Assembly: GCA_024277255.1 (NCBI GenBank)
Contig: JAJRVQ010000080.1
Coordinates: 1 to 64,000, forward strand
Length of the DNA stretch: 64,000 nt
From: Acidobacteriota bacterium
GTDB lineage: Bacteria > Acidobacteriota > Thermoanaerobaculia > Multivoradales > SZUA-115
Direction of reading: 5' to 3'
Positions 33,580-50,851 of this stretch are shown here, piece by piece (the stretch's first letter is position 1; each line of letters starts with the position of its first letter). Under the pieces are notes generated by a model. The model saw only the letters and a program-made list of their open reading frames with translations. It was not told the DNA's origin and made no database searches. The translations under genes and the position numbers were made by a program.

Positions 33580-35070
33580 ATGACAAAGAAGACCAGAACG
33601 CCGCTAGAGCGCCGTCGTCGCAACAGCGCCCGGGTTTCTCTCTACCTGAGCCTGATTCTGGTGGGTATTCTGGTGTTTGCCGGATCCCGCTATATCGAGA
33701 CGCTGAAACCCACCTACGAAGCGGCGCCGTGGAGCGGGATCGATTTTGCGCAGTTCGAGGAAGTACGGCTACTTCAAGAGTACCTGCGCATCGATACCAG
33801 CCAGCCCGACGCCGACGAGCGGGCCGGTGCCCGCTTCCTCGCCGCGCAGCTGGAGGCCGCGGGCATCGAAGCTCACGTCGAAGAGCTCGGCGAGCATCAC
33901 GCCAACGTCTGGGCCATTCTCGAAGGGAAGGACCCGAAAGCGCTGGTGCTGCACAGCCACATCGACACCGATCCGATTCCCTATCCCGACCTGTGGCGGC
34001 GTGAACCGACCTCGGGAGATATCGAAGGTCCGTGGATCCACGGCCGTGGCGCCTACGACATGAAGGGGATCGCTATCGCGCAGCTGGTGAGCTTTATCGA
34101 GCTGAAGCGCAGTGGCCTACCACTCGAACGATCGGTGATCTTCCTCGCCACGGGTAGTGAAGAGATCGGCAGCGACTACGGGATGAGGTGGATCCTCAAA
34201 CAGCATCCTGAGCTGGCCGAGCGCTTCTGGGGAATGTTGACGGAAGGTGGAGCGCTCGAAAACCGATCGCTCAGCGATCTGAAGTACTGGGGCATCGAGT
34301 TCTCGCAAAAGAGGTGGGCAGACGTCACTTTCTGCTCAGCTAGCCGAGGGCGGCTCGAAGTCCTCCAGGAAGAACTGAAACAGCAAGACAACGGCCCCCC
34401 TCTCTCGATCCACATCACTCCGGAGTTGGCCGAGTTTTTGAGAGAGTACGCGCCGTCGCGCGACAAGGCACTCCTGCGCGAGTTGCTCGCTGAGCCATTC
34501 GAGCTGGAGAGGAATCCGGCGCTGGTCGAGATCCACGAAGTGCCGAAGTTCCTTCACTCCATGATGCACGACGAGGCCAGGCCGTCCATCGTGATCGAAG
34601 AAAAAGGGGGCGGTTACGAGCTGGTGGTGCGCTTCTACCTCCTGCCGGGTTCAGACTTCGCCAAGGCCAGAGAGGAACTCTTGCCCGAATGGATGACCTA
34701 TGGCCTGGACTTCACCATTGGCAAGGAAGTCGGCAACGACGGGAGCAGCCCGCTCGACCATCCGCTCTATTTGCAGATCGTTCGCTCGTTGAGCGCCGAG
34801 TATCCGGACGCCCCCATCGGTCCCTACTTTCTACCCTGGACCGCCACCGACTCACGCTTCGTGCGTAGCGACAGCGTGGTGGCCTATGGACTTTCTCCCT
34901 TCTTGGTGCCGCTGGCCGAGACCTTCCAGATCGGGCGGCCCAACGAGAGGTTGAATCTCCTGGGATACCTCAACGGGATCAACGTCTTTCGCCGTCTGCT
35001 GTTCAAACTGGGAGCCAACGCCGAGGCCCAGAACCTGTGGATTCCCCCCAAGAGAGAGGCAGAGATTTGA
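33580..35070 (+). CDS. Membrane-anchored M20 peptidase (first M20/pilin pair)
   Basis: The 496-residue zinc peptidase has a basic N-terminus and one transmembrane helix at about residues 18-37, so the catalytic part is probably extracytoplasmic. M20 motifs are LHSHIDTDPIP, GRGAYDMKG and TGSEEIGSDYG. The entry segment LQEYLRIDTSQP is shared in form (LRDYLRIDTSNP) with the second M20 protein at 36028. TAGGAG lies before the ATG. The gene is followed, after a 267-bp regulatory gap, by a pilin gene. The substrate is unknown; amino acids, peptides or N-acyl products are typical for the family. Confidence 0.88.
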   Translation: MTKKTRTPLERRRRNSARVSLYLSLILVGILVFAGSRYIETLKPTYEAAPWSGIDFAQFEEVRLLQEYLRIDTSQPDADERAGARFLAAQLEAAGIEAHVEELGEHHANVWAILEGKDPKALVLHSHIDTDPIPYPDLWRREPTSGDIEGPWIHGRGAYDMKGIAIAQLVSFIELKRSGLPLERSVIFLATGSEEIGSDYGMRWILKQHPELAERFWGMLTEGGALENRSLSDLKYWGIEFSQKRWADVTFCSASRGRLEVLQEELKQQDNGPPLSIHITPELAEFLREYAPSRDKALLRELLAEPFELERNPALVEIHEVPKFLHSMMHDEARPSIVIEEKGGGYELVVRFYLLPGSDFAKAREELLPEWMTYGLDFTIGKEVGNDGSSPLDHPLYLQIVRSLSAEYPDAPIGPYFLPWTATDSRFVRSDSVVAYGLSPFLVPLAETFQIGRPNERLNLLGYLNGINVFRRLLFKLGANAEAQNLWIPPKREAEI

Positions 35071-35143
35071 CCCTTGGAGGGTCAGTCGCCGGCGTGGCTC
35101 GCGGGGGTGGGCTCCGGCGAGTGACATTGGGTGGCATAGACCG

Positions 35144-35160
35144 CTGACAATCATTGTCAG
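35144..35160. promoter_or_regulatory. Palindromic putative activator site (UAS 1)
   Basis: CTGACAATCATTGTCAG is a perfect 17-bp palindrome about 141 bp before the predicted transcription start of the first pilin gene. Its 15-bp core is repeated exactly upstream of the second pilin gene and was noticed nowhere else in the window. It is the expected geometry for an enhancer bound by a dimeric sigma-54 activator, probably the regulator encoded at 49493-50851. Confidence 0.75.
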
Positions 35161-35265
35161 CTTCTCTCCTGCAGCGGCAGGTGGGGGCCGGATCGGTGCT
35201 TCAATAGACATGGCAAGTGCTTTGTTTTCTGTGGGATAGAAGTTTTGTGTTGGCCGGGAGGATAG

Positions 35266-35282
35266 TTGGCACAGGGGTTGCT
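35266..35282 (+). promoter_or_regulatory. Sigma-54 promoter of first pilin gene
   Basis: TTGGCACAGGGGTTGCT contains the full -24/-12 consensus, TGGCAC-N5-TTGCT, with GG (35268-35269) and GC (35280-35281) ten bases apart. The predicted start of transcription is about 35293, giving a 45-base leader with a GAGGAG ribosome-binding site (35322-35327). Confidence 0.9.
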
Positions 35283-35337
35283 CTATAGAACGGGCGAGCC
35301 AGAGACCAACACCAACAGACCGAGGAGATCCTTTACC

Positions 35338-35862
35338 ATGATTCAGAAACTAACCAACCGTCGCCGGCAGAAGGGTTTCACCCTGATTGAGCTCCTGATC
35401 GTCATCGCAATCATCGGTATCATCGCCGCCTTGCTCGTGCCGAACTTCCTGGACGCGCTGAACAAGGGCCGCCAGAAGCGCACCATGGGTGACATGAAGA
35501 ACTGGGGTACCGCTGCATTCTCCTGGCTGAGCGATCGTCTGGGTGCCGGCGCGGCCGGCCAGGCCGTGACCACCTTTGATCCGACCTCCTATCCGGCCGT
35601 CATGACGGTGACCGCGGTACAGGATGAGCTGGTCCCGAACTACATCCAAGAAGTGGCCGCTATCGATGCGTGGCGCAAGTCCTACGAATACCGCATGCCG
35701 GTTCTCGATCCGGCAGTCGAGTTCGCCCTCTTCGTTCGCAGCACGGGCCGTGACGGGACGGCTGATGGGATCACCGATATCGGTTCCTTCGATCCGACCG
35801 ACTACGCCATGGACACGGTCTGGGCCGATGGCTCGTTCCTCCGCAGGCCTGAAAAGCAGTAA
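35338..35862 (+). CDS. Type IV major pilin-like / GspG-like prepilin 1
   Basis: The 174-residue prepilin has a 13-residue basic leader and the type III cleavage motif G|FTLIELLIV, with the conserved Glu five residues after the site. A long hydrophobic alpha-1 helix follows, continuing into NFLDALNKGRQKRTMGDMK, which resembles GspG/acidobacterial pilins. The short globular domain ends ADGSFLRRPEKQ. It would be processed by the prepilin peptidase at 38300-39076 and form the pilus or a pseudopilus. The ATG is set by GAGGAG and by the leader length. Expression appears to depend on a perfect sigma-54 promoter, and a strong terminator follows, making it monocistronic. Confidence 0.9.
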   Translation: MIQKLTNRRRQKGFTLIELLIVIAIIGIIAALLVPNFLDALNKGRQKRTMGDMKNWGTAAFSWLSDRLGAGAAGQAVTTFDPTSYPAVMTVTAVQDELVPNYIQEVAAIDAWRKSYEYRMPVLDPAVEFALFVRSTGRDGTADGITDIGSFDPTDYAMDTVWADGSFLRRPEKQ

Positions 35863-35889
35863 GACGCCTTTCGGCCTTGCCCTATGCCA

Positions 35890-35922
35890 GAGGGTGTCGC
35901 TCGGCGACACCCTCTTTTTTTT
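35890..35922 (+). terminator. Rho-independent terminator after pilin 1
   Basis: A perfect 11-bp stem (GAGGGTGTCGC / GCGACACCCTC) with a TCG loop is followed by eight T residues, 28 bp after the pilin 1 stop codon. Confidence 0.95.
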
Positions 35923-36027
35923 GTCTGGCCCTACCTTGTGCAGGGCCATTCTTTCTCGGGATGAGAGTTTCGATAGGTTGCCGGGTCTATGATTGGACCC
36001 GGCTTTTCTGCTACTACAGTGCGTACC

Positions 36028-37434
36028 ATGAGAATCCAAACGACAAGAGCCCGCACTGGGTGGTGGTTGGTGGCGGTCGCGGTGGTGGTGGCGGCCGGCC
36101 TGTGGGTCGGTTCGGCCGCCCATGGCCGATCCGGCAACGCGGCGCGCTCCGAAGGGGCTCGCTGGCTGCGCGACTATCTGCGCATCGATACCTCGAACCC
36201 GCCGGGCCGAGAGCACCGCGCGGCAGCCTTCCTCGCTGACATTCTTCACCGCGAGCGCATTCCCACTCGGCTGCTGGTGACGCCGGACGGTCGAGCCAAT
36301 CTCTATGCTCGATTGCCCGCCCACGGCGAGCCGGTCGGGGGGCCGTTGGTGCTGACCCACCACATGGATGTGGTGCCCGCCGGGCCGGGCTGGAGCGTCG
36401 AGCCGTTTTCGGGCGCGGTGGTCGATGGTCGGATGTGGGGCCGGGGTGCCGTCGATATCAAGAGTCTCGGCATCGCTCAGCTGGCGACGATGGTCGATCT
36501 CAAGCGGCGCGGCGTTTCGCTGGCTCGCGATCTTGTTTTTGTGGGGGTGGCGGACGAAGAAACCGGCGGCGCCCAGGGGATGGGCTGGTTGATCGAGCAG
36601 TTTCCCGAACTTTTCGCCGATGTCTGGGCGGTCTACAACGAGGGCGGCATGGGCCATGCGGTGGGCGAAAGGGTCTTGTGGTGGGAGGTCGAGGTGGCGC
36701 AAAAGCGTCCGCTGTGGCTTCGTGCGACGACCCATGGCCGCGGCGGCCACGGCTCCGGTTTCCACCCGCGATCCTCGGTGCACAAGCTGATCGCCGGGCT
36801 CGACCGGCTGATCGCCATGCCGACGCAGTACCGTGTCACCGCTCCGGTGCGGGACTTCTTGGGAGCCCTGGCTCCGTACCACGGGAAGCGACCGAAGCGT
36901 ATTTTTTCGGACCTCGATCGGTATATTCAGCCGGACGGACCGACGGAGCCGATGTTGCCGGGCATCACCAACCTGTTTGTCGACACCATTCAAGTCACCG
37001 TGCTCGAAGGCAGCACCGCCATCAACGTGATCCCGGCCGAAGCATCGGCTTTGATCGACATTCGAATGTTGCCGGACACCGATGCCGAGGCTCTGCTGGC
37101 TCGCGTTCGCGAGGCCCTCGGCGAACGGATCAATGTCGAGGTGCTGGTGACCTCGCCGCCGTCCCCACCCTCGCCGAGAGATCATCCGGCTTATCGTGCG
37201 ATCGTAACGGAACTTGGTGAAATCGCTCCGGTCGTCCCTTCGTTCATGTCCGGATTCACCGATTCTCGCCACTTCCGTGAGCGAGGAGTTCCCGCCTACG
37301 GCCTCTCCCCTTTTGCCCTTACGGCGGAAGATCGGATGGGAATCCACAGCGCCGACGAGGCGATCTCGATCGAGCGGCTCGATCGAGGGATTGAACGGAT
37401 GATCCACATCGTCGAAACCTGCGTCGCACGGTGA
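36028..37434 (+). CDS. Secreted or anchored M20 peptidase (second M20/pilin pair)
   Basis: The 468-residue zinc peptidase starts at ATG 36028, giving the basic N-terminus and hydrophobic segment of a signal peptide or anchor (about residues 11-32). M20 motifs are LTHHMDVVPAGPGW, GRGAVDIKS, VADEETGGAQG and a final metal-ligand region around SGFTDSRHFRE. The segment before the catalytic domain, LRDYLRIDTSNPPG, mirrors the other M20 protein at 33580. An upstream in-frame ATG (35989) would add 13 residues. The second pilin gene follows after a short regulatory gap, repeating the peptidase-pilin order. Confidence 0.88.
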   Translation: MRIQTTRARTGWWLVAVAVVVAAGLWVGSAAHGRSGNAARSEGARWLRDYLRIDTSNPPGREHRAAAFLADILHRERIPTRLLVTPDGRANLYARLPAHGEPVGGPLVLTHHMDVVPAGPGWSVEPFSGAVVDGRMWGRGAVDIKSLGIAQLATMVDLKRRGVSLARDLVFVGVADEETGGAQGMGWLIEQFPELFADVWAVYNEGGMGHAVGERVLWWEVEVAQKRPLWLRATTHGRGGHGSGFHPRSSVHKLIAGLDRLIAMPTQYRVTAPVRDFLGALAPYHGKRPKRIFSDLDRYIQPDGPTEPMLPGITNLFVDTIQVTVLEGSTAINVIPAEASALIDIRMLPDTDAEALLARVREALGERINVEVLVTSPPSPPSPRDHPAYRAIVTELGEIAPVVPSFMSGFTDSRHFRERGVPAYGLSPFALTAEDRMGIHSADEAISIERLDRGIERMIHIVETCVAR

Positions 37435-37453
37435 CATCGGTTCACACCGAAAC

Positions 37454-37468
37454 TGACAATCATTGTCA
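37454..37468. promoter_or_regulatory. Palindromic putative activator site (UAS 2)
   Basis: TGACAATCATTGTCA is a perfect 15-bp palindrome identical to the core at 35145-35159. Its centre is about 86 bp before the predicted transcription start of pilin 2, and it begins 20 bp after the stop of the second M20 gene. Confidence 0.75.
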
Positions 37469-37520
37469 TTTCCCGAGCCAAAGAGGGGGAAAAGCCCTTG
37501 TTTTTGAGGCTCGCCGTGCG

Positions 37521-37536
37521 TGGCACGTCCCTTGCT
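37521..37536 (+). promoter_or_regulatory. Sigma-54 promoter of second pilin gene
   Basis: TGGCACGTCCCTTGCT matches TGGCAC-N5-TTGCT exactly, with GG at 37522-37523 and GC at 37534-37535. The predicted transcription start near 37547 gives a 49-base leader, close to the leader length of pilin 1. Confidence 0.9.
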
Positions 37537-37595: not shown

Positions 37596-38105
37596 ATGTA
37601 CCAAACGCGAACAAAACGAGGATTCACCCTCATCGAACTTCTGGTCGTCATCGCCATCATCGGCATTATCGCGGTAATCCTGATTCCCAACTTTCTCGAC
37701 GCGATCAACAAGGCAAGACAAAAGCGCACCATGCAAGATATGAAGGAGACCGGAACCGCGATGATGAGTTGGCTGTCGGACAACGTGTCCTCCTCCGCCG
37801 CGGGTGCTTCCGGTCCGAGCTTCGATGTCGGCAGCTGGCAAGGGACGTCCGACTTGGCGGCGATCCGCCAGGCTCTGGTGCCGAGCTACATCCAGGAGAT
37901 CAAGGATCGCGACGGCTGGAAACACAGCTATACATATCGCCTCGATCTGTTGAATCCCCAGCGCCAGCAGATCATGCTCATCGGTAGTGGTGGCTTTGAC
38001 GGCAATGCTGTCTCGGGCACCTACGCCATTGGATCGTTCGATCCCACAGACTACAAACAAGATCTTGTTTGGGCCGACGGCGGTTTTCTGCGGAGGCCCA
38101 ATTAA
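37596..38105 (+). CDS. Type IV major pilin-like / GspG-like prepilin 2
   Basis: The 169-residue prepilin is a paralog of the protein at 35338. It has a short leader (MYQTRTKRG), cleavage site G|FTLIELLVV, a helix continuing NFLDAINKARQKRTMQDMK, and an ending (DLVWADGGFLRRPN) nearly the same as pilin 1. The middle of the globular domain differs, so the two may be alternative subunits or one may be a minor pilin. The ATG at 37596 gives the expected leader; the longer open frame runs through the promoter and is not real. It has its own sigma-54 promoter and upstream palindrome. Confidence 0.9.
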   Translation: MYQTRTKRGFTLIELLVVIAIIGIIAVILIPNFLDAINKARQKRTMQDMKETGTAMMSWLSDNVSSSAAGASGPSFDVGSWQGTSDLAAIRQALVPSYIQEIKDRDGWKHSYTYRLDLLNPQRQQIMLIGSGGFDGNAVSGTYAIGSFDPTDYKQDLVWADGGFLRRPN

Positions 38106-39089: not shown

Positions 39090-41051
39090 GTGAGTAGCCG
39101 GCGGCGTCTCGGCCTGCGGCGAGAGATCTCGATCCTCGTGCCCGTTTCGCTATTGCTGGTGGTGTTGCTGTCGACCTTTACCCTCTTTGCCCACCGCAAC
39201 GCTCTGCGCCTTCTCACCGAGGAGCGACGCGCCGAAGCGCAGAGAGCCAGCCGGTCGGCGACGGCTGAGCTTTCGGCCGGGCTGAGAATTTCCGAAGACG
39301 ATCTGCGCCGGGTGACTCGGGGGGCGATCGCCTCCACCGTGGTGGCGGCGGATGGAACGCCCTTGTTGTCGGCGGGAGAACCGCTGAGCGGAGAGCCGCT
39401 GTCCCTGTTGGCGGGCCAAACGATGTCCGGGGACCGGTCGTTCGGCCCCGGCCGGGCGACCGGTGATCGGGTGGTGGCATTCGCCAGCTTGCGCCAGGGC
39501 AAGATCCTACGCGTCGACTATCCGGCGCGGATGTTGGCGAACCAGCTTCGTCTGATGAGAGCCCTGTTTGGCATCGTCTTGGCGGCGGACATCGGGGTGC
39601 TGATTCTGGTCCTGCTCTTCGTACGCCGCTTGCTGACGCCCTACGAGAGGATGCTCGACCGAGCGCGCCAGTTGGAGCGCGACGGCACCCTAGCCATGGC
39701 GCCGGTGTCGCCGGGAGAGGTACAAGATCCGGATGACGAGATGGCCTTCTTGATCTCGACCTTCGACCGGGCCCTGTGGCAGCTGTCCCAGCGCGAGCCG
39801 CGATCTGAGCCGGAAGTGCGATCTGAGCCGGAAGCGCGACCTCGGCCGGAAGCGCGATTTCGGCAGGAAGCAGGTCAGTTCTCGCCGGCGTCCGAGGTGG
39901 CAGGGTCGACCTCACCGGAGCCGAGGGCCGGAGTCGTGGCGGACAGCGAAGAGCTGCGCGTGATCGGCCAGACGCTGGCGCCGAGTTTCGACAGCGGATT
40001 GCTCTTGCTCGATCGGCGAGGTGAGGTCTTGGCGCTCAACGATGTTGGAGCTCGCCTACTCAGTGTAGGCCCGCCGCCTCCGGGAACTCCGGTCGAGGAG
40101 CTGCTCGAGCGCCACGGTGAACTGCTGGTCCTGTTGACCGAGGCGATTGAGGCGGGGCAAGGCGTCAAGCGGCGTGAGTGCCAGGTGGGGGATCTGGCCT
40201 TGGGCTTGACGGTTCATGCGCTACGACCGGTCGGTCCGGAGGTGCGAGGCTTCTTGGTGCTTTTCGCCGACCTGACCCAGGCCCGCCGCGATGCTCACGA
40301 GAGCCGGCTGGCCGAGAGCCTGGCTCAACTCGGCGAGTTGGCGGCCGGGGTGGCTCACGAACTGCGCAACAGCCTGGGAACGCTACGCGGCTACATCGGC
40401 TTGATGGAGCGGCGACGGCGCCAACACCCGTCCGCCAGCGATACCGGTGACTACCTTGCCGAGATGCGCCGGGAGACCGAGCATCTGCAGCGAGTTCTGG
40501 AGGATTTTCTGACCTTCGCGCGGCCCGGTACGTTCAGGCCACAGCCGGTCGACTTGGGGCTGCTGGTGCGTGGCTGCGCTAGCGATCCAGCGCTTTCTGG
40601 TGCCCAGGTTGAAATCGTTGAGATCGCCGAGCCTGCCACCTCTGGCCGATCCGGCCCGATGATGATGCAAGCCGACCCGCAGCTGCTGGAGCGAGCCGTG
40701 CGCAATTTGCTGCGCAATGCCGTCGAGGCTGAGCGTCGTGCCGGCTTGCCGGGTGGAGCGCGGGTGGAGTTGCGGCGCAGTGAAGACAGCCTCGAGATTC
40801 GTGTCGAGGATCGAGGACCCGGGGTTTCCGAGGAGATGCTTGACCGGCTCTTTCTTCCCTTCGCCACCGGACGAGCCGACGGGGTCGGTTTGGGCCTCGC
40901 TCTGACCCACCGCATCGTCACGCTCCATGGTGGCACGATTCGCCACCAGCATCGCAAAGAGGGTGGAGCTCGCTTCAGTCTGGCGTTTCCGGTTGGCATG
41001 ATTGATACCAAACGTAGCGACGCATCTCTGGACCAGTTGCCCTATCGGTAG
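39090..41051 (+). CDS. Membrane sensor histidine kinase, PilS/NtrB-like
   Basis: The 653-residue kinase has two membrane helices (about residues 14-34 and 155-175) enclosing a sensor region. A HAMP-like segment, a charged repeat linker, a PAS-like domain (about 285-400), and then HisKA and HATPase domains follow. The phosphorylated residue is His423 in GVAHELRNSLG. ATP-binding boxes are NLLRNAVEAE, EDRGPGVSEEML and GVGLGLALTHRIV. It has no receiver domain, so it needs a partner, most likely the sigma-54 response regulator at 49493-50851. The GTG start follows 13 bp after pilD. It probably senses pilin or envelope state, by analogy with PilS. Confidence 0.88.
   Translation: MSSRRRLGLRREISILVPVSLLLVVLLSTFTLFAHRNALRLLTEERRAEAQRASRSATAELSAGLRISEDDLRRVTRGAIASTVVAADGTPLLSAGEPLSGEPLSLLAGQTMSGDRSFGPGRATGDRVVAFASLRQGKILRVDYPARMLANQLRLMRALFGIVLAADIGVLILVLLFVRRLLTPYERMLDRARQLERDGTLAMAPVSPGEVQDPDDEMAFLISTFDRALWQLSQREPRSEPEVRSEPEARPRPEARFRQEAGQFSPASEVAGSTSPEPRAGVVADSEELRVIGQTLAPSFDSGLLLLDRRGEVLALNDVGARLLSVGPPPPGTPVEELLERHGELLVLLTEAIEAGQGVKRRECQVGDLALGLTVHALRPVGPEVRGFLVLFADLTQARRDAHESRLAESLAQLGELAAGVAHELRNSLGTLRGYIGLMERRRRQHPSASDTGDYLAEMRRETEHLQRVLEDFLTFARPGTFRPQPVDLGLLVRGCASDPALSGAQVEIVEIAEPATSGRSGPMMMQADPQLLERAVRNLLRNAVEAERRAGLPGGARVELRRSEDSLEIRVEDRGPGVSEEMLDRLFLPFATGRADGVGLGLALTHRIVTLHGGTIRHQHRKEGGARFSLAFPVGMIDTKRSDASLDQLPYR
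39800..39871. repeat. Four 18-bp coding repeats in the kinase linker
   Basis: Four consecutive 18-bp units (the first is GCGATCTGAGCCGGAAGT) encode hexapeptides of the type RSEPEV/RPRPEA between the HAMP-like and PAS regions. Because 18 is a multiple of three, unit gain or loss would keep the frame and only change linker length. Confidence 0.9.
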
Positions 41052-41107: not shown

Positions 41108-41123
41108 TGGCACCGACCTTGCT
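41108..41123 (+). promoter_or_regulatory. Sigma-54 promoter-like sequence before minor pilin genes
   Basis: TTGGCACCGACCTTGC followed by T contains TGGCAC-N5-TTGCT exactly, with GG at 41109-41110 and GC at 41121-41122. The predicted transcription start (about 41134) lies only five bases before the FimT-like ATG at 41139, which would exclude that gene's ribosome-binding site. I see no copy of the upstream palindrome here. Confidence 0.6.
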
Positions 41124-41138: not shown

Positions 41139-41762
41139 ATGAAAATTCTAGGTTTGAGGAAAGAGGAGCGGGGCTTCTCGTTGATCGAACTGCTGGTGGC
41201 GATGGTGCTATTCACCATTCTGGTGGGGCTCGGCTGGCCCTCCCTGCAGAAGCTGATCGTGCGCAAGAAGCTCGAAGCGGTAACCTTCGAAACCTCGACG
41301 GTCTTCGCCATCGCCCGCCTTGAGGCGATCAAGACAGGCCGGCCCACCGTGGTCAGGGTGAACCCGGCCACCAAGACGGTGCAGGCATTCGTCGACGATG
41401 ACCAGAATGGGGATCGAAACGGCGCAGAACGGGTCTTGCGCAGCTACCAGTTGCCAAGGTTCATCGGCTTCGGAGGTCCGCCGACCGAGCCACCTCCAAC
41501 CTCGTCGAGCGTTTTCGGGTTCACCTTGGCTCCGGGAGGCAGGCCGAACCAGGTGGTGTTCAACGCCGACGGTTCGGTGAGGGACACTGGAGCCTTTCGC
41601 CTGCGCGAAGTGAAGCCGGCCAACCCCACCAAGGAGAACTACTTCGAGGTGAGAATGCCGGTGCAAGCGGCAACCAGTGTCAAGATCCGCAAGTGGGATC
41701 CGGAGAGTTCGCAGTGGAAAGAGCAGGGCGAAGGAGGCGACAAGTGGCAATGGAAAATGTAA
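41139..41762 (+). CDS. FimT/GspH-like minor pilin
   Basis: The 207-residue prepilin starts at ATG 41139, which gives a 12-residue basic leader (MKILGLRKEERG) and the cleavage site G|FSLIELLVAMV. A hydrophobic helix leads into a GspH/FimT-type globular domain with IARLEAIKTGRPTVVRV, the usual early part of the family, and a glycine-rich strand around NQVVFNADGSVRD. It is probably a tip or initiation pilin of the type IV pilus. A ribosome-binding sequence GGAAGG is present, and a sigma-54 promoter lies directly upstream. It overlaps the PilV-like gene. Confidence 0.87.
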   Translation: MKILGLRKEERGFSLIELLVAMVLFTILVGLGWPSLQKLIVRKKLEAVTFETSTVFAIARLEAIKTGRPTVVRVNPATKTVQAFVDDDQNGDRNGAERVLRSYQLPRFIGFGGPPTEPPPTSSSVFGFTLAPGGRPNQVVFNADGSVRDTGAFRLREVKPANPTKENYFEVRMPVQAATSVKIRKWDPESSQWKEQGEGGDKWQWKM

Positions 41763-42304
41763 GCGGCGTCGGGCAGACTCGCGGCGGCGAGAGAGGATTT
41801 AGCCTTCTTGAGGTGCTGATCGCCTCCGGACTGTTGTTCATGGTCATGATCGGGCTGGTACCGCTCTTCTTGCAGTCGGTGCTCAATAACGCCTCGGGTA
41901 ATGAATCATCCAAGGTCAGCAACGCCGCCCGCTCGGCCGCCGAGCAGTTTTTCGCCTTTGACTTCAATCACCCGACGCTGGTGGTGGAGGGCGGGGTGGA
42001 GAAGCAGTTCGATCAGCACTTCGACCACCTCACTCAACAGTGGATCGACGGTGCCAGTGCCGCGCCGGGAAAGCAGCTGGAGCGGTCGATCATCGTGCGT
42101 CAGTTCCAGCTCCGCGACCTGGAAGACAATGGCGTGCTGGACAATCCCTTTGCCAGTCCTCCCGGCGCAGGAGGGGCGGTCAACCTCTTCCCGGTCCATT
42201 TGCGTGAAATCGAGGTCGAGGCCACCGGGCAAGCCGTCGATGGCGGTGCTCTAGGTCGCGTGCTCAACAAGACCGTCACTCTGCGCGTGTTGCGGGGGTT
42301 CTAG
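41744..42304 (+). CDS. PilV/GspI-like minor pilin
   Basis: The 186-residue prepilin has cleavage site G|FSLLEVLIASG after a leader ending GGER. The GTG at 41744 is chosen because AGGAGG (41732-41737) lies six bases upstream; an ATG two codons later (41750) is possible. The gene overlaps the FimT-like gene by 19 bp. The globular part contains a run predicting type IV pilus modification/assembly protein PilV and ends in a beta-strand set (REIEVEATG). It is predicted to form part of the minor-pilin tip complex with the adjacent PilW- and PilX-like proteins. Confidence 0.84.
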   Translation: MAMENVSGVGQTRGGERGFSLLEVLIASGLLFMVMIGLVPLFLQSVLNNASGNESSKVSNAARSAAEQFFAFDFNHPTLVVEGGVEKQFDQHFDHLTQQWIDGASAAPGKQLERSIIVRQFQLRDLEDNGVLDNPFASPPGAGGAVNLFPVHLREIEVEATGQAVDGGALGRVLNKTVTLRVLRGF

Positions 42305-42306
42305 CG

Positions 42307-43686
42307 ATGGAAAGAATGAAACGGAGTTTCTTCTCCTGCCTGCGGCGCGACGAGCGCGGTTTCACCCTCATTGAAATGACGGTTTCCCTGGTGGTGATGA
42401 TGGAGATTCTGATCGCTGCCTTTCTGGTCTTCGAGTCCAACCGCCGGCTGAGTCACGTCCAGACCGCGGTGGCCGAAATGCAGCAATCCCTGCGTATCGG
42501 GCAGCACGACATGGTTCGCCTGGTCAGGATGGCCGGTCGTGGAGGTTTGCCGCTTCAAGACCCGAATCAAGCTATCGCAACCCCGGAGCCCCCCATTCCC
42601 TTCGGTCTCGGCCTCTTGGTGCGCAATGACATCGGCGCCAATGAGCACATCGTGGTTGCCAACACCACCTCGCCTCGGGTGATCGAGGGCACCGATGTCC
42701 TGACCGTGCGCGGCTCGTTGAACAACCCTGTTTACATTATCGACCGCGACAAGCCGAACGCCGGTGGGCTTCGCGGTTTCAACGTGAACGCCGACGGAGT
42801 TTCGGGCTCGATCGAAGTCTGTTACCAGGTCGCCGCAGGGTTGGAGCAGGACTTGTCAGCCCTCGTCGAGCTGCTCGACAGCACCCAGCCGGGATACACC
42901 TTCCGTCCCGAGTCACTGATCATGGTCAGCAGTTTCGATGATCGAGACTACGCGGTGGTCGAGCTGGCGCCTGGCTCCACGCTGAATGCATCGAATACCT
43001 GCGCCGCTATCGACGCCGACAATGACGGAACGCCCGATGATACCGGCGTGACGATCAACTTCATCAGCGACGGGGGCCTTCACACCCCGGCCTACAACGA
43101 GATCAGTCCGGGAGGCGACAGCACGGCGGAGATCCAGGCTCGGCTAGCTCGATTCCTTTCGGAAGGGCTCAGCTATATCGGCGTCCTCGAAGAGTATCGC
43201 TACTACGTACGCGATGACGCCACCAATCCGGCCAGCACTCATGAGATCCAGCCGGTGCTGACGCGCAGCCGCTTCTATCCGAACACGGAAAGTCCCTACC
43301 CGGATATCGCCGACTTCGAGAGTCTCAGAGTGGATATTGCCGAAAACGTCTTCGACTTGCAGATTGCCATCGGCTTCGACACTGATGGTGACGGCGATGC
43401 GGATGAGGGGCCGGACGCCGCGGACGAGTGGATCTTCAACGATCCGGGTGATGTTCAGCTCAATGGCACCCTGCGCAGTCTGCGCATCAGCACCTTGGTG
43501 CGAACCGATCGTCCTGACAACAAGTACCAGGCTCCAATCTGGTTCGGCCTCGAAGACCGCGTCTACGGGACAGGGGCGACTAGCGCCATCAACAATGACG
43601 AGGCCCGCAAGTACCGGCGGCGAGTTCTGCGCTCCGATGTGAGCCTGCGCAACAACTTCCAGATTCCGCTGGCGGTGGGACCATGA
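42307..43686 (+). CDS. PilW-like minor pilin
   Basis: The 459-residue prepilin starts with a leader ending RDERG and cleavage site G|FTLIEMTVSLVV. It then has a long alpha-1 helix and a large C-terminal domain. Length and order (FimT, PilV, PilW, PilX, PilY1) identify it as PilW-type. Two acidic Asp-rich loops, AIDADNDGTPDDTG and DTDGDGDADEGPD, look like possible calcium-binding segments. The gene starts two bases after the PilV-like stop, and its end overlaps the next ATG by four bases (ATGA). Confidence 0.86.
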   Translation: MERMKRSFFSCLRRDERGFTLIEMTVSLVVMMEILIAAFLVFESNRRLSHVQTAVAEMQQSLRIGQHDMVRLVRMAGRGGLPLQDPNQAIATPEPPIPFGLGLLVRNDIGANEHIVVANTTSPRVIEGTDVLTVRGSLNNPVYIIDRDKPNAGGLRGFNVNADGVSGSIEVCYQVAAGLEQDLSALVELLDSTQPGYTFRPESLIMVSSFDDRDYAVVELAPGSTLNASNTCAAIDADNDGTPDDTGVTINFISDGGLHTPAYNEISPGGDSTAEIQARLARFLSEGLSYIGVLEEYRYYVRDDATNPASTHEIQPVLTRSRFYPNTESPYPDIADFESLRVDIAENVFDLQIAIGFDTDGDGDADEGPDAADEWIFNDPGDVQLNGTLRSLRISTLVRTDRPDNKYQAPIWFGLEDRVYGTGATSAINNDEARKYRRRVLRSDVSLRNNFQIPLAVGP

Positions 43687-44339
43687 GCGATCTAGATCCC
43701 ATGGCCGGTGAACAGCAGACGAGGAGAGCAGAGTCGATGAGTCGCACTTCAGCTCAAGCCACCACCGATCCGCAGCCTTCCCACCAGGTCGACCGGCGAG
43801 CGCATGAGCGTGGCCACGAGCGAGGAAGCGCCTTCATCATCACCCTGATGGTGATGATCGTGCTCACCGTTCTTGGCCTTTCCCTGGTCTTCATCACCGC
43901 CGGTGAGCAACAGGTTGGTGCCAACGAGAGGTTGATTAGCCGGGTCTTCTACGCCGCAGACTCCGGCATCGCCATCGCCGCTGCCCGCTTGCTGGTCAAC
44001 AACGACTCGCGAGCCACGATCGTTGAGCTACCCGGGGATGGCGGGATCGCCTCGGCGCAAATCCGCAACGAGGTCGAGCTACAGCCCGTGGTACCGCTCT
44101 ACGATCTACGCTGTGACCTCTGTGCCACCGCCAACGGAACCGGTTACAACGACCAGTTGATGAGCAAGGCGAGCAATGCGATCCGCGTTCAAGGTCGCAG
44201 AGTCGTCGGCGTCAGCGAGACGATCATCGCTCGCAAGAACATTGAAGTCATGCTCGAAGTCACGCCCCAGGTGGTGACCACCGATGCGTATACGCCAGCC
44301 GAGAAGGTACGGCAGAGTTCGATTGCAACAATCCCATGA
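43683..44339 (+). CDS. PilX-like minor pilus assembly protein
   Basis: The 218-residue protein has an unusually long, charged N-terminus of about 45 residues, then a hydrophobic segment in a PilX-type setting (HERGSAFIITLMVMIVLTVLG). The continuing helix reads GEQQVGANERLISRVFYAADSGI, typical of PilX_N/GspK-like proteins. The usual Glu after the cleavage site is replaced, as is common in PilX/GspK proteins. An internal start near MSRTSAQ (about 43737) would shorten the leader. It is probably in the tip complex with PilY1, whose gene follows. Confidence 0.82.
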   Translation: MSDLDPMAGEQQTRRAESMSRTSAQATTDPQPSHQVDRRAHERGHERGSAFIITLMVMIVLTVLGLSLVFITAGEQQVGANERLISRVFYAADSGIAIAAARLLVNNDSRATIVELPGDGGIASAQIRNEVELQPVVPLYDLRCDLCATANGTGYNDQLMSKASNAIRVQGRRVVGVSETIIARKNIEVMLEVTPQVVTTDAYTPAEKVRQSSIATIP

Positions 44340-44388
44340 CCTGTGTCATTCGATGAAGTACCAGCGTCGAACTCGCAAGGAGATCAGC

Positions 44389-47300
44389 ATGCGTTTCCCT
44401 CTTTTGAAATCCACCTTGAATCTCACCCGCACAACAGCGCTCGCCGGCTTGCTGGCAGCACTGGCCCTGGGTCTGACCATCGTTACTCCCGCCTCGGCGG
44501 TGGACGACCGCGACCTGTTCAGCGCTGGAAGTGAGACGCCCTACCTCTTCGTACTCTTCGACACCTCGGGTTCGATGCACTGGAAGCCGCCGTGCACCGA
44601 CGCGGACGGTTGCTCCTACGAGTGCCCGCTGAGCGACGATCTTTGCTCCCGAATCTGCCCGCGGCACACCTGCACCGATCCGGCGACCGGCATCGTGACC
44701 GAAAAACCGGTGTGCAACGTCGGTGAGACCGAGGGCTGGCTTTGCGAGACCGGCAGTTGCCCGAACGGAGACTGCTTTGCGCCGCTCAATGGAGACGATC
44801 CCGGCTCGAAGTTCTTCCAGGCGAAGAGTGCGATCTATCAGGTGATTCAAGAAACGCTCGACGAGAAGATTCCCCTCCACCTGGGATTCGGCACCTTCAA
44901 CCAGGACCGCCTGCGCATGCAAGGGTCGCATTGGCTCTACAGCTTGGAGCCCGGGCAGCCGCTGATCTCACTGGATAGTGGACGCAAGTTTCCCAATGAA
45001 CTGATTCCCCAGGTCTTCGGCCGGACCTGGAGCTGCCGGGCCGGCCCCAATATCGGGTTCGAAAGCGGGGATCCCGCGACTCTGGGCCAAGCCTGGCAAG
45101 AGGCGCGCCTCTATCGTTGTCCGCAACTCGGCCAAGATGGCAACGAAGACTCGGGCAACAATTTCAATATGTTGTATTTCATCGATCCGGAGGACTCACA
45201 GAAATACCGTGTCCAGTTTCAAAACGTGACCGGAGAGGTTCTGGGAGAACCCGTCGTCCATGCACATATACACGTTGATCGGTGTGAGAACAAAAGTTGC
45301 TCCAGCAGGGACCACATCGCGGATAGAACCTTCCACTACAGCCTGATCAGCGAATTCACCTCGTGGGATATCCGCGCCTTGAACACCAACAATTTGCTGA
45401 CGCCGCGTCTCGGCTTCTTTCCTCAGTGGGCTGCTGGCGACGGGCCGGCAAACAACACCTGTGCCGGTTGGGATCCAAACACAGACACCGGTGTGGATAC
45501 GACCGGCGGGCTGAACATTCGCTTTCCCACCGAGCCCACCGATCCGCTCGGCAGCGAGCTGACGGTCGGGGATGTCATTCCTTTCGATTGGCGTTTCGAT
45601 CACAAAGAAGAGGTGTTGCGGCGGCTGGCGCCAAACCGTTCTCCGGGAGGCGCACCGGATGCACCACCGGATTTCCGCGTCGCCACCTATTTTGAAAATG
45701 AGGCCTCCGCAGCGGGAGCGAACCTGGACCTCGTCGCTACCGACGAGCGTCCGATCACCTCCTTCGGTGCGACTCCGTTGGCCTTCTCGGTCAACAACTT
45801 CCGCAGCTGGTTCAATAGCTGGAAAAACAAGGCGCAGAACCCAACGACCGGCGACGCTACGTTCGGTTGCAAGGACGTCTATCTGTTGGTTATCACCGAC
45901 GGTGACGAGACTTGCGGAGGAAATCCCTGCAAAGCGACCCAGGACTTGTATGGGAATGATCCTGACGATCCGATAGTCCAAACGTACGTGATCGGTTTCG
46001 GCCTTGCCGGCGGCGCCGGCAACTCGTTGCTGTGCATGCCCAAGTACCTGGTGGACGATGTGGCCGGCAGCGACCCGGAAGGTAAATGTCTGGATGACAA
46101 TACCGGCGCTAGCCTGCTCAACGGCAACGGTGTCTGCCAGAAGCCGTTCTTCGCCAGCGATCAGGAAGAACTGATCAATGTGATCAAGAATGTTGTCCGT
46201 GACGTGACCGGCAAAACCCGTGCCTTCGCCACGGCGGCGGTGCCGTCAGTCCAGGCCACCGTGTCGGACAAGATATACCTTTCCAACTTCGTCCCGGTGC
46301 CCGACGAGTCTGTCTGGGATGGTCATATCAATGCCTTCCTGAAACCCTTGCCGTTGCTGGCGGATGGCAAACCCGACACATCGGACCCCAACTTTCTCTG
46401 GGATGCCGGCCAGGTGGTGGCGGATACTCAGGTGCCCAGCGGGGACAAACTCGGTGGATCGGTCAACCAGCGGCGGGTCTACTACTCACTCTTCCCGCAG
46501 ACCACCGAGTCTCCGCGGGTCCGCCGCCTCTTGGAGTCGACCAGCCCGACGTCAGCGCTTCTTACCCGCTATGATCTTTGGAACGGCATGGAGATCGCCT
46601 TCGCACCGGGCAATACGCCGAGCGAAGCGGCGGCGGAGCTGGAGGCCAACGCGGCGATCGATCAGTTGTTCTCGTTGAAGGAGTACAACAACCCGGATCT
46701 CGGCTTGGTCTCCTATGTCGTCGGTGACGTTTTCCACTCCGATCCGGTGTTGATTGGAACTCCTCCGAACACCCTCTACTTCACCCTCAACCTGATGGAC
46801 AATGGCCAGGCCTGCGATGACGATGCGAATGGTGAACCGCTCAATCCGGGGTACCGTTGCTTTACTCTCAAGCAGGAGAACCGTCGCAAGGTCCTCTTCC
46901 TTGGCACCAACGAGGGAATCCTCCATGGCTTCGATGCCGGGCTCTACGATGAAGCGACGGGCGAGTTCGATGATGGAACCGGCAAAGAACTCTTTGGCTT
47001 TGTTCCGCGATCCGTCCTGCCGAAGATCCGAGAGTCGGCGGTGTCCAACGAGCACGACTTCACCGTCGACGGTAGCTTTATCGTGGACGATGTGTTCATC
47101 GACCCTGCCCACTTCGGTACTCCGAACGAAGTTGATCGCGAATGGCGAACGGTCGGTGTCGCCGGTCTGCGTCGCGGCGGCTCGGGCTACTACGCCTTGG
47201 ACGTCACCGCCCCGGATCCGGTACAAAAGACCACCGACGCGGAGGGTTTACCGCTGTGGGTACCGCAGCCGCGGGCGGATCGCTTGCCGCGCTGCTGGGG

Positions 47301-48765
47301 TAACGACAACGGTCTCGGCCAGCCCAGTAACTGTGGCGAAACGGCCTATCCGTCCGTCCTGTGGGAATTCGAAGACAAGTTCAGGAACGACCAATTCAGC
47401 GGTGTTAGCCTCGACGAGGAGCCGCAGGCGACCACTTTCATCACGGTCAACGGCCGCTCGGAAGAGGTTGTCGGTAAGAGCGAGTTCGATCTCGCCGGCA
47501 ACCTGATTGAAGCCTATCCGGACCTAGGCGAGACGTGGTCGGATCCGGTGATCGGTCGCATTGCGATCTGCGCTGCGCCGGGTAGCAATTGTGACCCGGA
47601 TGATCCCAACAACACGGTCGAAGATCGCTACGTGGCGATCTTCGGTGGCGGCTATGATCCCGGCCAACAGCACCGGCGTGGCAACTGGATCTACATGGTC
47701 GATATCGAGACCGGAGAGACCCTCTACAAGCGATCCGTCTTGGGCTCGGTTCCCGGACAACTCGCCACCCTCGACGTCAACGGCGATGGCTACCTGGACC
47801 GGATCTATGCGGGAACGACGCGAGGTTTCCTCTATCGCATCGACCTGGAGCGCGATTTTTCCGGTGACTGGCCAGCCTTGGTCGACTTGCAGGTCGACGA
47901 CATCACAGGACAGCCACGGGACGTGCGACGGGTCGACCCGGCCTTCTGGCTGCCGCGGGTCGTCTTTGATGCCAACGAGACCAACGTCCAGTCCAATGGC
48001 GGAACCTTGGTGCGCGGTCGAGCCGTCTTCCTGCGTCCCGAGATCGCTTTCGTTCCGGAGTTCAACAGCTTTGCGGTCGTCTTCGGAACCGGATATCGCG
48101 ATGAGCTGTGGAGCGAATTCAAACCGAGCGAGGGTGGGCCGCAGCGCGGAAGACTCTTCGTCTTCATCGACGACACGGAGGCTTCCGATCCGGTGCTCGA
48201 CCAGAACGATCTGATTCGGATCACACCCTCTTCCGGCGCCACCTCCACCCCCAACTTGCTGGCCAACGGTGGCGGTGGTTGGTATATGGATCTGGAGCCC
48301 AACGAGCGGCTGACCAGTGTCCCCTTCATCGTCGCCGGCGTGCTGGTGTTCAACACCTACACCCCTGCCGCCCAGTCGGTGACCACCGTCGGCGGCCTCT
48401 GTCGACGGGAAGGATCGAGCCGCATCTACGGCGTCTTCTTGCTCAACGGCAACGGTCTCCTGGCCTCCTCGGCCAACGATCCGACTCCCGACCGATTCAA
48501 ACAGATCGATGATTTCGTCACCGCACCATTCACCGAACCGGGGCAAACCAAGAACCCGACCGACGATGGCACCGGCACTCCCGAGCCCACCGTCTTGACG
48601 GCGGCGCAAGCAGAAATTCTGCGCCAACTCAAGGAGTTCATGCCGCCCTACTGTCGCTTCGCGAGCTACACTATGGATGTGAAGATCTCGCGCTCCGATA
48701 CGGGGGTCGAGTTCATCGCGCCCATTCCGATCTGTTTGGTTGAGAAGAACTGGCGGGAGTTCTAG
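44389..48765 (+). CDS. pilY1: PilY1-type pilus tip protein with von Willebrand A domain
   Basis: The 1458-residue protein has an N-terminal signal peptide (about 35 residues, ending near TPASA). A von Willebrand A-like domain follows, with the MIDAS start DTSGSMHW and a Cys-rich insertion directly after it. The C-terminal half is the PilY1 seven-bladed propeller: KVLFLGTNEGILHGFDA, and a calcium-binding loop DVNGDGYLD near residue 1131. PilY1 controls pilus extension/retraction and adhesion. The ATG at 44389 is set by AAGGAG six bases upstream and by the signal peptide. Its position after PilX supports the assignment. Confidence 0.93.
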   Translation: MRFPLLKSTLNLTRTTALAGLLAALALGLTIVTPASAVDDRDLFSAGSETPYLFVLFDTSGSMHWKPPCTDADGCSYECPLSDDLCSRICPRHTCTDPATGIVTEKPVCNVGETEGWLCETGSCPNGDCFAPLNGDDPGSKFFQAKSAIYQVIQETLDEKIPLHLGFGTFNQDRLRMQGSHWLYSLEPGQPLISLDSGRKFPNELIPQVFGRTWSCRAGPNIGFESGDPATLGQAWQEARLYRCPQLGQDGNEDSGNNFNMLYFIDPEDSQKYRVQFQNVTGEVLGEPVVHAHIHVDRCENKSCSSRDHIADRTFHYSLISEFTSWDIRALNTNNLLTPRLGFFPQWAAGDGPANNTCAGWDPNTDTGVDTTGGLNIRFPTEPTDPLGSELTVGDVIPFDWRFDHKEEVLRRLAPNRSPGGAPDAPPDFRVATYFENEASAAGANLDLVATDERPITSFGATPLAFSVNNFRSWFNSWKNKAQNPTTGDATFGCKDVYLLVITDGDETCGGNPCKATQDLYGNDPDDPIVQTYVIGFGLAGGAGNSLLCMPKYLVDDVAGSDPEGKCLDDNTGASLLNGNGVCQKPFFASDQEELINVIKNVVRDVTGKTRAFATAAVPSVQATVSDKIYLSNFVPVPDESVWDGHINAFLKPLPLLADGKPDTSDPNFLWDAGQVVADTQVPSGDKLGGSVNQRRVYYSLFPQTTESPRVRRLLESTSPTSALLTRYDLWNGMEIAFAPGNTPSEAAAELEANAAIDQLFSLKEYNNPDLGLVSYVVGDVFHSDPVLIGTPPNTLYFTLNLMDNGQACDDDANGEPLNPGYRCFTLKQENRRKVLFLGTNEGILHGFDAGLYDEATGEFDDGTGKELFGFVPRSVLPKIRESAVSNEHDFTVDGSFIVDDVFIDPAHFGTPNEVDREWRTVGVAGLRRGGSGYYALDVTAPDPVQKTTDAEGLPLWVPQPRADRLPRCWGNDNGLGQPSNCGETAYPSVLWEFEDKFRNDQFSGVSLDEEPQATTFITVNGRSEEVVGKSEFDLAGNLIEAYPDLGETWSDPVIGRIAICAAPGSNCDPDDPNNTVEDRYVAIFGGGYDPGQQHRRGNWIYMVDIETGETLYKRSVLGSVPGQLATLDVNGDGYLDRIYAGTTRGFLYRIDLERDFSGDWPALVDLQVDDITGQPRDVRRVDPAFWLPRVVFDANETNVQSNGGTLVRGRAVFLRPEIAFVPEFNSFAVVFGTGYRDELWSEFKPSEGGPQRGRLFVFIDDTEASDPVLDQNDLIRITPSSGATSTPNLLANGGGGWYMDLEPNERLTSVPFIVAGVLVFNTYTPAAQSVTTVGGLCRREGSSRIYGVFLLNGNGLLASSANDPTPDRFKQIDDFVTAPFTEPGQTKNPTDDGTGTPEPTVLTAAQAEILRQLKEFMPPYCRFASYTMDVKISRSDTGVEFIAPIPICLVEKNWREF

Positions 48766-48776
48766 GAAGGCTGAGC

Positions 48777-49496
48777 ATGAAAGCGTTCTCGACAAGCCGG
48801 TGTCGGCTCAGTTTGGCGACGATGATCTTCGTGGCGACTTGGCTGGCTTCCTCCACGGCTCCGCTACAGGCGGATTGGCTGGTCACCGTCGACGGTTCGC
48901 GAATCGCCACCCGAGGCGACTGGAAGGTCAAGGGGCGGCAGGTCGTCTTCACGGCAAGAAACGGCACTTACTCCGCCCTGCCGTTGTCCCAGGTTGACTT
49001 GGAGCTGAGCCAGCGGTTGACCGAGGCCGCCAAGGCGCCCAAGGAGGAGAAGGCCGAGCCGGCGGTCAAGAAACCGCCGGTCTTGGTGCTGACCGACAAG
49101 GACATTCCCCGCTACCGGGCGACCAACAAAGAACCGACTGCCGGAGCGGAGGCCGATCAGCCGGTCAGCGCGGCGCCGGCGACAGACCTTCGGGTGGCGA
49201 GATGGGAGATTTCCGGCGACACCTCGTCAGCCAGCGGCACGACTTTGAGCGGCTCGCTGGTGAACCAGACTCCGGATGCGGCGGCTTCGATCCGGTTGAT
49301 CGTGCGGGTCTACGACGAGGATGGCCAACAGGTTGGGCAGCGCTATGCCGAACTTGACCGAACCGCCTTGCCACCGGGCAAAGAGACGAGTTTCTCGGTG
49401 AGCTTTCCCGATGTGCTGCGAGTGGGTTCGGTGAAATTCGAGACCCGCAGCGCTCGTTTCCGCGCCGCGGAGCCGGAAGTCGATTCTTCTAGCTAG
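48777..49496 (+). CDS. Secreted hypothetical protein with FxLYD-like C-terminus
   Basis: The 239-residue protein has an N-terminal signal peptide (to about residue 32) followed by a short beta segment starting DWLVTVDGSRIATRGDWKVKG. A Lys/Glu/Pro-rich linker then leads to a C-terminal beta-sandwich resembling the FxLYD domain. It contains SGSLVNQTPDAAASIRLIVRVYD and LPPGKETSFSVSFP. It is close behind pilY1 and probably envelope-located, perhaps in pilus function. The exact role is unknown. Its TAG overlaps the stop of the convergent response regulator through the shared CTAG. Confidence 0.7.
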   Translation: MKAFSTSRCRLSLATMIFVATWLASSTAPLQADWLVTVDGSRIATRGDWKVKGRQVVFTARNGTYSALPLSQVDLELSQRLTEAAKAPKEEKAEPAVKKPPVLVLTDKDIPRYRATNKEPTAGAEADQPVSAAPATDLRVARWEISGDTSSASGTTLSGSLVNQTPDAAASIRLIVRVYDEDGQQVGQRYAELDRTALPPGKETSFSVSFPDVLRVGSVKFETRSARFRAAEPEVDSSS

Positions 49497-50851
49497 TGTC
49501 CCGAGCGGTACTTGGGAACACCTTCCAGGTCGTGTTGTTTGATCCGGCGCTGGAGGGTGCGGTAGCTCCAGCCGAGCCGCTCGGCGGTTCGGCGTTTGTC
49601 GCCGTCGCAGTCGATCAGGGTTCGGCGAAGGAGTTCGCGATCGTCGCCTTGGGGCGAGGGTTCGGTCGCGCCGTCGCTCAGCGGGCGGATCAGCTGTCGC
49701 AGATCCTCTTGGGTGATTAGGGGGCGGTCGGTGAGGATTACCGCTCGCTCCAAGACATTGGCCAGCTGCCGTACGTTGCCCGGCCAGCTTTGCTCGGCCA
49801 GGAGTGAGAGGGCCGAGGGGTCCAGCCGGGGAGCCGGTCTCCCTTTCTTCTCCAAGTGATGCTGCTTGACCAGCCGCGCCAGGAGATGGTGGCAAAGATC
49901 AGGGAGATCCTCGCTGCGTTCGCGCAACGGCGGCAGCTCGATCGGAAAGACGTCGAGGCGATAGAACAGGTCGCGGCGGAAGGTGCCCGCTTCGACCTCG
50001 GCCGCAAGATCGCGGTTCGAGGCCGCGACCAACCGCACATCGACGTTGAGCGTAGAGCCGCCGCCGACCCGTTCGAAAGCCCGCTCCTCGATGACGCGCA
50101 ATACCTTGGCCTGTACCGCGAGGCTCAGTTCGCCGATCTCGTCCAAGAAGAGAGTGCCGTGGTCAGCGACTTCGAAGCGGCCAGCCTGTCGCCGGTCGGC
50201 ACCGGTAAAGGCACCTTTGACATGACCGAAAAGCTCGTTCTCGACCAGCGCTTCGGGGATCGCCGCACAGTTGAGTGCCACGAAAGGCCCCTCGCGGCGT
50301 GGCGAAAGAGCATGCAGGGCACGGGCGAAGAGTTCCTTGCCGGTGCCACTCTCACCGGTCAACAGCACGGTGCTCTGCATCGGTGCCACTCGCGAGAGCA
50401 GATGAAGCGCGGCGCGCAATCGCGGGTGCGAGCCGACGATGGGTGGTGCCCCGGGCACTTCGAAGAGGCTGCCCTTCTTCGCCTCCGGCTGGAGAACGGA
50501 GTGAACCAGCTCGTAGAGTTGGTCGATCTCCACAGGCTTTTCGAGGAAGTCCAAAGCCCCTCGCTTCATCGCTTCAACAGCCACTTCGACGGTGCCGTAG
50601 GCGGTCATCACCACGACCGGGAGGGGGGGGCGGCGACGCCGGCATGCGGAGACGACTTCGAGGCCGGAGACCTCGGGCAACTTGAGGTCGGTGAGGACCA
50701 GGTCAAAGGGTCGAGATTCCACCTTTCCGATGGCGGAGAGACCGTCACCGCAACTCTCGACGGCAAAACCTTCGCTGGATAGCGCTCTCTCCAGCATCTT
50801 GCGTAGAGAGGCCCGATCTTCGACGATTAAGATTCGCGCCGGCTGGTTCAC
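49493..50851 (-). CDS. Sigma-54-dependent response regulator, PilR/NtrC-like
   Basis: The 452-residue regulator has three domains. The receiver (1-120) has phospho-acceptor Asp55 in LVLTDLKLPE. The AAA+ domain has Walker A GESGTGKE at 166-173, the sigma-54-contacting GAFTGA at 213-218, and Walker B GTLFLDEIGEL. A C-terminal Fis-type helix-turn-helix (RRTAERLGWSYRTLQRRIKQ) follows. The GTG at 50851 gives a normal receiver start; the longer frame adds unrelated sequence. It is the only enhancer-binding protein in the window and should act on the three sigma-54 promoters here, with the kinase at 39090 as partner. Confidence 0.92.
   Translation of the reverse strand: MNQPARILIVEDRASLRKMLERALSSEGFAVESCGDGLSAIGKVESRPFDLVLTDLKLPEVSGLEVVSACRRRRPPLPVVVMTAYGTVEVAVEAMKRGALDFLEKPVEIDQLYELVHSVLQPEAKKGSLFEVPGAPPIVGSHPRLRAALHLLSRVAPMQSTVLLTGESGTGKELFARALHALSPRREGPFVALNCAAIPEALVENELFGHVKGAFTGADRRQAGRFEVADHGTLFLDEIGELSLAVQAKVLRVIEERAFERVGGGSTLNVDVRLVAASNRDLAAEVEAGTFRRDLFYRLDVFPIELPPLRERSEDLPDLCHHLLARLVKQHHLEKKGRPAPRLDPSALSLLAEQSWPGNVRQLANVLERAVILTDRPLITQEDLRQLIRPLSDGATEPSPQGDDRELLRRTLIDCDGDKRRTAERLGWSYRTLQRRIKQHDLEGVPKYRSGH

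Follow-up and report, generated by a model that had tools for sequence, protein, structure and literature searches.

Tandem TGNCA-N5-TGNCA sites before two sigma-54 pilin promoters of an Acidobacteriota bacterium and a classical PilR as their likely reader

Control of the pilin gene pilA by PilS-PilR and sigma-54 has been described in Pseudomonas aeruginosa (PMC6058289), Geobacter sulfurreducens (PMC2725144) and Myxococcus xanthus. The pilin genes considered here share with these systems a sigma-54 promoter, upstream sites and an NtrC-type PilR, together with a six-helix PilS and linkage of the regulatory genes to pilT and pilC; they differ in that there are two pilins, preceded by identical tandem palindromes, and in that pilS-pilR lies on a different contig. 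The PilR sites of P. aeruginosa are described as NifA-like TGT-N11-AGA sequences with GTCT elements (PMC6058289), whereas the site here is a clean TGNCA-N5-TGNCA repeat, the Geobacter and Pseudomonas motifs having been compared second-hand. The arrangement also resembles the tandem upstream activating sequences of NtrC, in which dimer sites come in pairs spaced by about two helical turns, roughly 80–150 bp before the transcription start. NtrC sites are of the TGCAC type, whereas the half-site here is TGNCA within a 15 bp repeat.

Two further systems invite comparison. DVU2114 of Desulfovibrio vulgaris is likewise a sigma-54-dependent response regulator, bound close to pilin genes at a site that its relatives share, but its targets resemble Tad/Flp pilus genes (PMC3333781). 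NmpRSTU of M. xanthus is likewise a second NtrC-like system that acts on type IV pili beside PilSR; it does so on pilR, via a site inside pilS (PMC6211767), whereas for the second system described below the predicted targets are the minor pilins, and the predicted site lies where its own kinase gene ends.

Promoters and palindromes at the two pilin genes

The window, a stretch of 64,000 nucleotides, encodes two type IV prepilins, PilA1 and PilA2, which are paralogues with 56% identity. An earlier note on this DNA had reported identical palindromes and exact TGGCAC-N5-TTGCT promoters before both genes, and both observations were confirmed at the following positions.

35122–35136, no strand: distal site of the pilA1 pair, TGACATTGGGTGGCA, 0 mismatches to TGNCA-N5-TGNCA
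35145–35159, no strand: proximal palindrome of the putative pilA1 enhancer, TGACAATCATTGTCA
35267–35282, plus strand: sigma-54 −24/−12 element of pilA1, TGGCACAGGGGTTGCT, perfect, also in the sister species
35338–35862, plus strand: pilA1, type IV prepilin of 174 aa (N_methyl motif, translation)
37432–37446, no strand: distal site of the pilA2 pair, TGACATCGGTTCACA, 1 mismatch to TGNCA-N5-TGNCA
37454–37468, no strand: proximal palindrome of the putative pilA2 enhancer, TGACAATCATTGTCA
37521–37536, plus strand: sigma-54 −24/−12 element of pilA2, TGGCACGTCCCTTGCT, perfect, also in the sister species
37596–38105, plus strand: pilA2, type IV prepilin of 169 aa (N_methyl motif)

The promoter calls are consensus matches; in both, the GG-N10-GC core of the −24/−12 element is perfect and conserved in relatives. 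When the transcription start is placed 12 nt past the −12 GC, the predicted leaders are approximately 45 nt (pilA1) and 49 nt (pilA2) long, and the palindrome centres lie approximately 141 and 86 nt upstream of the predicted starts; these values, recomputed from the sequence, agree with those first reported. At up to two mismatches, 0.03 such palindromes would be expected by chance in the window. The weaker distal copies, overlooked in the earlier note along with a third sigma-54 promoter at 41108 and a classical PilS-PilR system elsewhere in the genome, are spaced 23 bp (pilA1) and 22 bp (pilA2) from the proximal ones, and the distal site of pilA2 overlaps the stop codon of an M20 gene. Two M20-family peptidase genes, at 33580–35070 and 35989–37434, lie upstream of pilA1 and between the two pilin genes, and this order of peptidase and pilin genes is preserved in most relatives; we know of no link between M20-family peptidases and pili. 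A degenerate sigma-54-like sequence, TGGCAAGTGCTTTGTT, is also found at 35211–35226, 66 bp past the pilA1 palindrome, which is the canonical distance in relatives. It was rejected as a second pilA1 promoter, being absent from the sister species, and is possibly a relic promoter.

Pattern searches of the whole 5.95 Mb draft assembly found TGACAATCATTGTCA in only two copies, both before the pilins, and TGACAATNATTGTCA was confined to the same two loci. Random scattering of the palindrome over the genome had been named in advance as evidence against a regulatory role, and the search gave the pilin loci only. The looser TGACA-N5-TGTCA occurs three times genome-wide, twice at pilins, and among 14 perfect TGGCAC-N5-TTGCW sites only the two pilin ones have paired TGNCA-N5-TGNCA sites within 250 bp upstream. 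The exact text of the palindrome had no match in the literature searched.

Conservation of the site in the sister species, the order and the phylum

In the SZUA-115 sister species (L036), whose pilins are 80% identical, the pair of sites and the stretch separating them have hardly changed at either pilin gene, while the flanks have diverged. For example, the distal site of pilA1 falls within about 40 bp of conserved sequence common to the sister species, and the distal site of pilA2 (TGACATCGGTTCACA) is identical there, the proximal palindrome of pilA2 showing a single difference, near the centre.

In 39 pilin promoter regions of relatives, TGNCA-N5-TGNCA was found 50 times at no more than one mismatch; shuffled controls gave a mean of 2.28 and a maximum of 7, and altered spacers gave 2–13 sites in the same search. 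These sites are held at a fixed distance in two position peaks, with 34 of the 50 at −87 to −92 or −65 to −69 relative to the first base of the −24 element. The relatives thus carry a pair approximately 66 and 89 bp before that element, corresponding to the pair at pilA1 and pilA2, with the exception that the pair at pilA1 of this genus is about 56 bp farther away.

A scan blind to pilins was also applied to whole genomes, with the pattern TGACA-N5-TGNCA, 45–75 bases, then GGCAY-N6-TGC. It returned 11 matches in 72 genomes of the order (0 in the reversed control), mostly at pilins, and 30 matches in 396 genomes across the phylum (2 in the reversed control); outside the order, 17 of 28 matches precede genes with a prepilin motif. 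These phylum-wide matches at prepilin genes mark the element as a pilin enhancer whose origin appears to predate this gene cluster by far. The comparison supports TGNCA-N5-TGNCA as the upstream activating site used by a sigma-54 activator, as well as co-regulation of pilA1 and pilA2 through the palindrome, which upholds this part of the earlier proposal. Three TGACA–sigma-54 combinations before non-pilin genes (L245, L267 and L269) come from one AT-rich genome (G130); either the regulon is wider there, or base composition has produced them by chance.

Two NtrC-type systems as candidate readers

Two genes for a kinase and a regulator lie in the same cluster as the pilins.

39090–41051, plus strand: linked sensor kinase (P0004), two predicted transmembrane helices (hydropathy), no 6TM_PilS domain (Pfam)
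49493–50851, minus strand: linked NtrC-type response regulator (P0003), with Response_reg, Sigma54_activat and HTH_8

The earlier note had called these a PilS-like kinase and a PilR/NtrC-like regulator. The NtrC-type assignment and the GAFTGA motif hold; a place among the classical PilS-PilR pairs is not supported, because the linked regulators form a clade of their own (100/100 support), apart from classical PilR, and the partner kinase lacks 6TM_PilS. A classical operon is present on another contig of the same genome.

Contig C31: pilT at 5979, pilC at 7134, pilS at 8388 (6TM_PilS, PF25323) and pilR at 10109
Contig C31, 10109–11521 (G000:C31:10109-11521): classical PilR

The genome thus has a six-helix PilS and a PilR together with pilT and pilC, as expected of a PilR regulon. 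Contamination of this draft assembly is estimated at 8%, which would allow a foreign origin for C31; the sister species, however, has a PilR that is 92% identical, and this speaks against it.

The distribution of the site follows that of classical PilR, over few independent events. Among the genomes that encode classical PilR it is present in 35 of 40, and allowing up to one mismatch did not reveal it in the other five. It is absent from 14 of the 15 genomes that lack this PilR; the exception (G028) has the site and no classical PilR match in a genome that is 82% complete. Two contrasts within the order are informative, each probably a single evolutionary event. In family f2 (G003 and G011), no regulator of the linked type was found, the best matches reaching about 45% with other helix-turn-helix domains, and the sites and classical PilR are retained; the cluster region examined in G003 also has no minor-pilin operon. 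In the f4/g5 clade (14 genomes), there is neither a PilR match at 65% identity or more nor a site, and its pilin promoters show no convincing sigma-54 element. The linked pair is also missing from this large clade of the same order (e.g., G005, G013 and G047; L057, L172 and L170), so that, with both regulator systems, the sigma-54 element and the enhancer gone, its pilins must be controlled otherwise. G036 belongs to the same family and carries both PilR and a perfect site.

Outside these families, five loci (L270, L271, L272, L283 and L284) have a site-bearing pilA adjoining or near pilT-pilC-pilS-pilR, with no linked-type regulator there, and their PilR proteins group with the C31 PilR (98/98), apart from the linked regulators. 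The recognition helices alone are indecisive, since that of the PilRs from other classes (SYRTLRYL) has residues in common with the classical helix (SFRSFRYY) as well as with the linked one (SYRTLQRR). Classical PilR is the likelier reader in that it tracks the site through f2, through f4/g5 and through the lineages in which pilA sits beside pilTCSR. The comparison thus suggests that the TGACA site is read by the classical PilS-PilR system and not by the linked regulator.

The earlier note had instead proposed that the regulator at 49493–50851 binds the palindrome and activates both pilins. Physical linkage speaks for this, as most families of the order keep both linked genes in the cluster together with the two pilins, and so do the GAFTGA motif and a strongly conserved helix-turn-helix. 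Against it stand the f2 genomes, which keep the sites without the regulator, the other classes, which have the site beside classical pilS-pilR, and the adjacent sigma-54 promoter at 41108, which has no TGNCA sites and carries a different palindrome in relatives. We therefore regard this proposal as unlikely; the linked regulator is probably not the reader of the TGACA palindrome, and assigning the role to the neighbouring gene would be an error of guilt by association.

Classical PilR as reader thus remains our preferred reading, and we consider it likely that tandem-site enhancers serve classical C31 PilR at the pilins while the linked pair serves the minor pilins. From the observed sites, promoters, conservation and phylogenetic distribution, we infer the following course. 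Each pilin has a sigma-54 promoter and a putative tandem enhancer of two TGNCA-N5-TGNCA inverted repeats 22–23 bp apart, whose two sites would most likely be occupied side by side by phosphorylated PilR dimers; these would oligomerise, loop to the RNA polymerase–sigma-54 complex and drive open complex formation with ATP, and pilA1 and pilA2 would be switched together. The PilR concerned is most likely the classical one of C31. The repeat would then be a concrete candidate for a PilR binding code across much of the phylum, none having been found described in the literature searched.

The minor-pilin promoter and the remaining readings

The second system is best considered together with the third perfect sigma-54 promoter of the window.

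41004–41018, no strand: degenerate copy of GTTAC-N5-GTAAC, GATACCAAACGTAGC, 2 mismatches, 104 bp before the −24 element
41108–41123, plus strand: sigma-54 promoter of the minor-pilin operon, TGGCACCGACCTTGCT, perfect in the sister species too
41139–49496, plus strand: minor-pilin operon encoding a GspH-like pilin, PilV-like, PilW, PilX, PilY1 and a DUF3426 protein (Pfam, synteny in relatives)

A promoter of this type is present in most relatives, and TGNCA sites were found neither at the one in the window nor at those of relatives. Instead, an inverted-repeat search upstream found GTTAC-N5-GTAAC at −102 to −116 in 10 of 12 minor-pilin promoters (at most 4 in shuffled sets), and the palindrome was missing from all 41 pilA promoters checked. 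It occupies the 3′-terminal part of the kinase gene, and in two relatives it straddles the stop codon; it also uses rare Val, Arg and Gly codons (GTT 11%, CGT 9%, GGT 15%). The palindrome therefore appears to be conserved at the DNA level, and mere conservation of the kinase tail as protein is disfavoured. The linked pair more likely acts here, and would probably drive the minor-pilin operon from the 41108 promoter through GTTAC-N5-GTAAC.

It is about an even chance that pilus genes in this order are split between PilR with TGNCA-N5-TGNCA (major pilins, perhaps a chemotaxis-like operon) and the cluster-embedded, lineage-specific pair with GTTAC-N5-GTAAC (minor pilins and PilY1). On this view the two two-component systems would divide the work, so that fibre subunits could be set separately from tip or priming components.

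Both systems might also act on the pilins, PilR via TGACA and the linked regulator via extra contacts or control of pilR. The two NtrC-type pilus-tied systems coexist in 34 of the compared genomes, and one NtrC-like system feeding another has a precedent in NmpR and pilR of M. xanthus (PMC6211767). We nevertheless judge dual control quite unlikely, as the pilA promoters show no second conserved palindrome and no GTTAC sites.

Fur-family boxes have 7-1-7 symmetry, which TGACAAT-N-ATTGTCA shares. A Fur/PerR-type repression box unrelated to sigma-54 is very improbable, however: there are only two genomic copies where several targets would be expected of a Fur-type regulator, the central AATNATT is lost in relatives while TGNCA-N5-TGNCA is conserved, and the site keeps a fixed position relative to the −24 element. 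That the palindromes are a functionless, passive remnant of the duplication behind the paralogous pilA1 and pilA2 is hardly credible, as both copies, here and in the sister species, retain the site amid diverged flanks; it also holds its position in relatives, and occurs at unrelated pilin loci across the phylum.

The third genomic TGACA-N5-TGTCA, at C154:44347 (region 44347–44446 of contig C154 in G000; L005, 1501–1600), lies about 70 bp from a perfect sigma-54 element, within an intergenic block that is also conserved in the sister species. It precedes a chemotaxis-like operon encoding CheY, a GAF protein, CheA, an MCP and CheR. The site is positioned downstream of the predicted start, and NtrC-like regulators are able to act from downstream positions (PMC6211767); the PilR regulon may possibly extend to this motility-signalling system.
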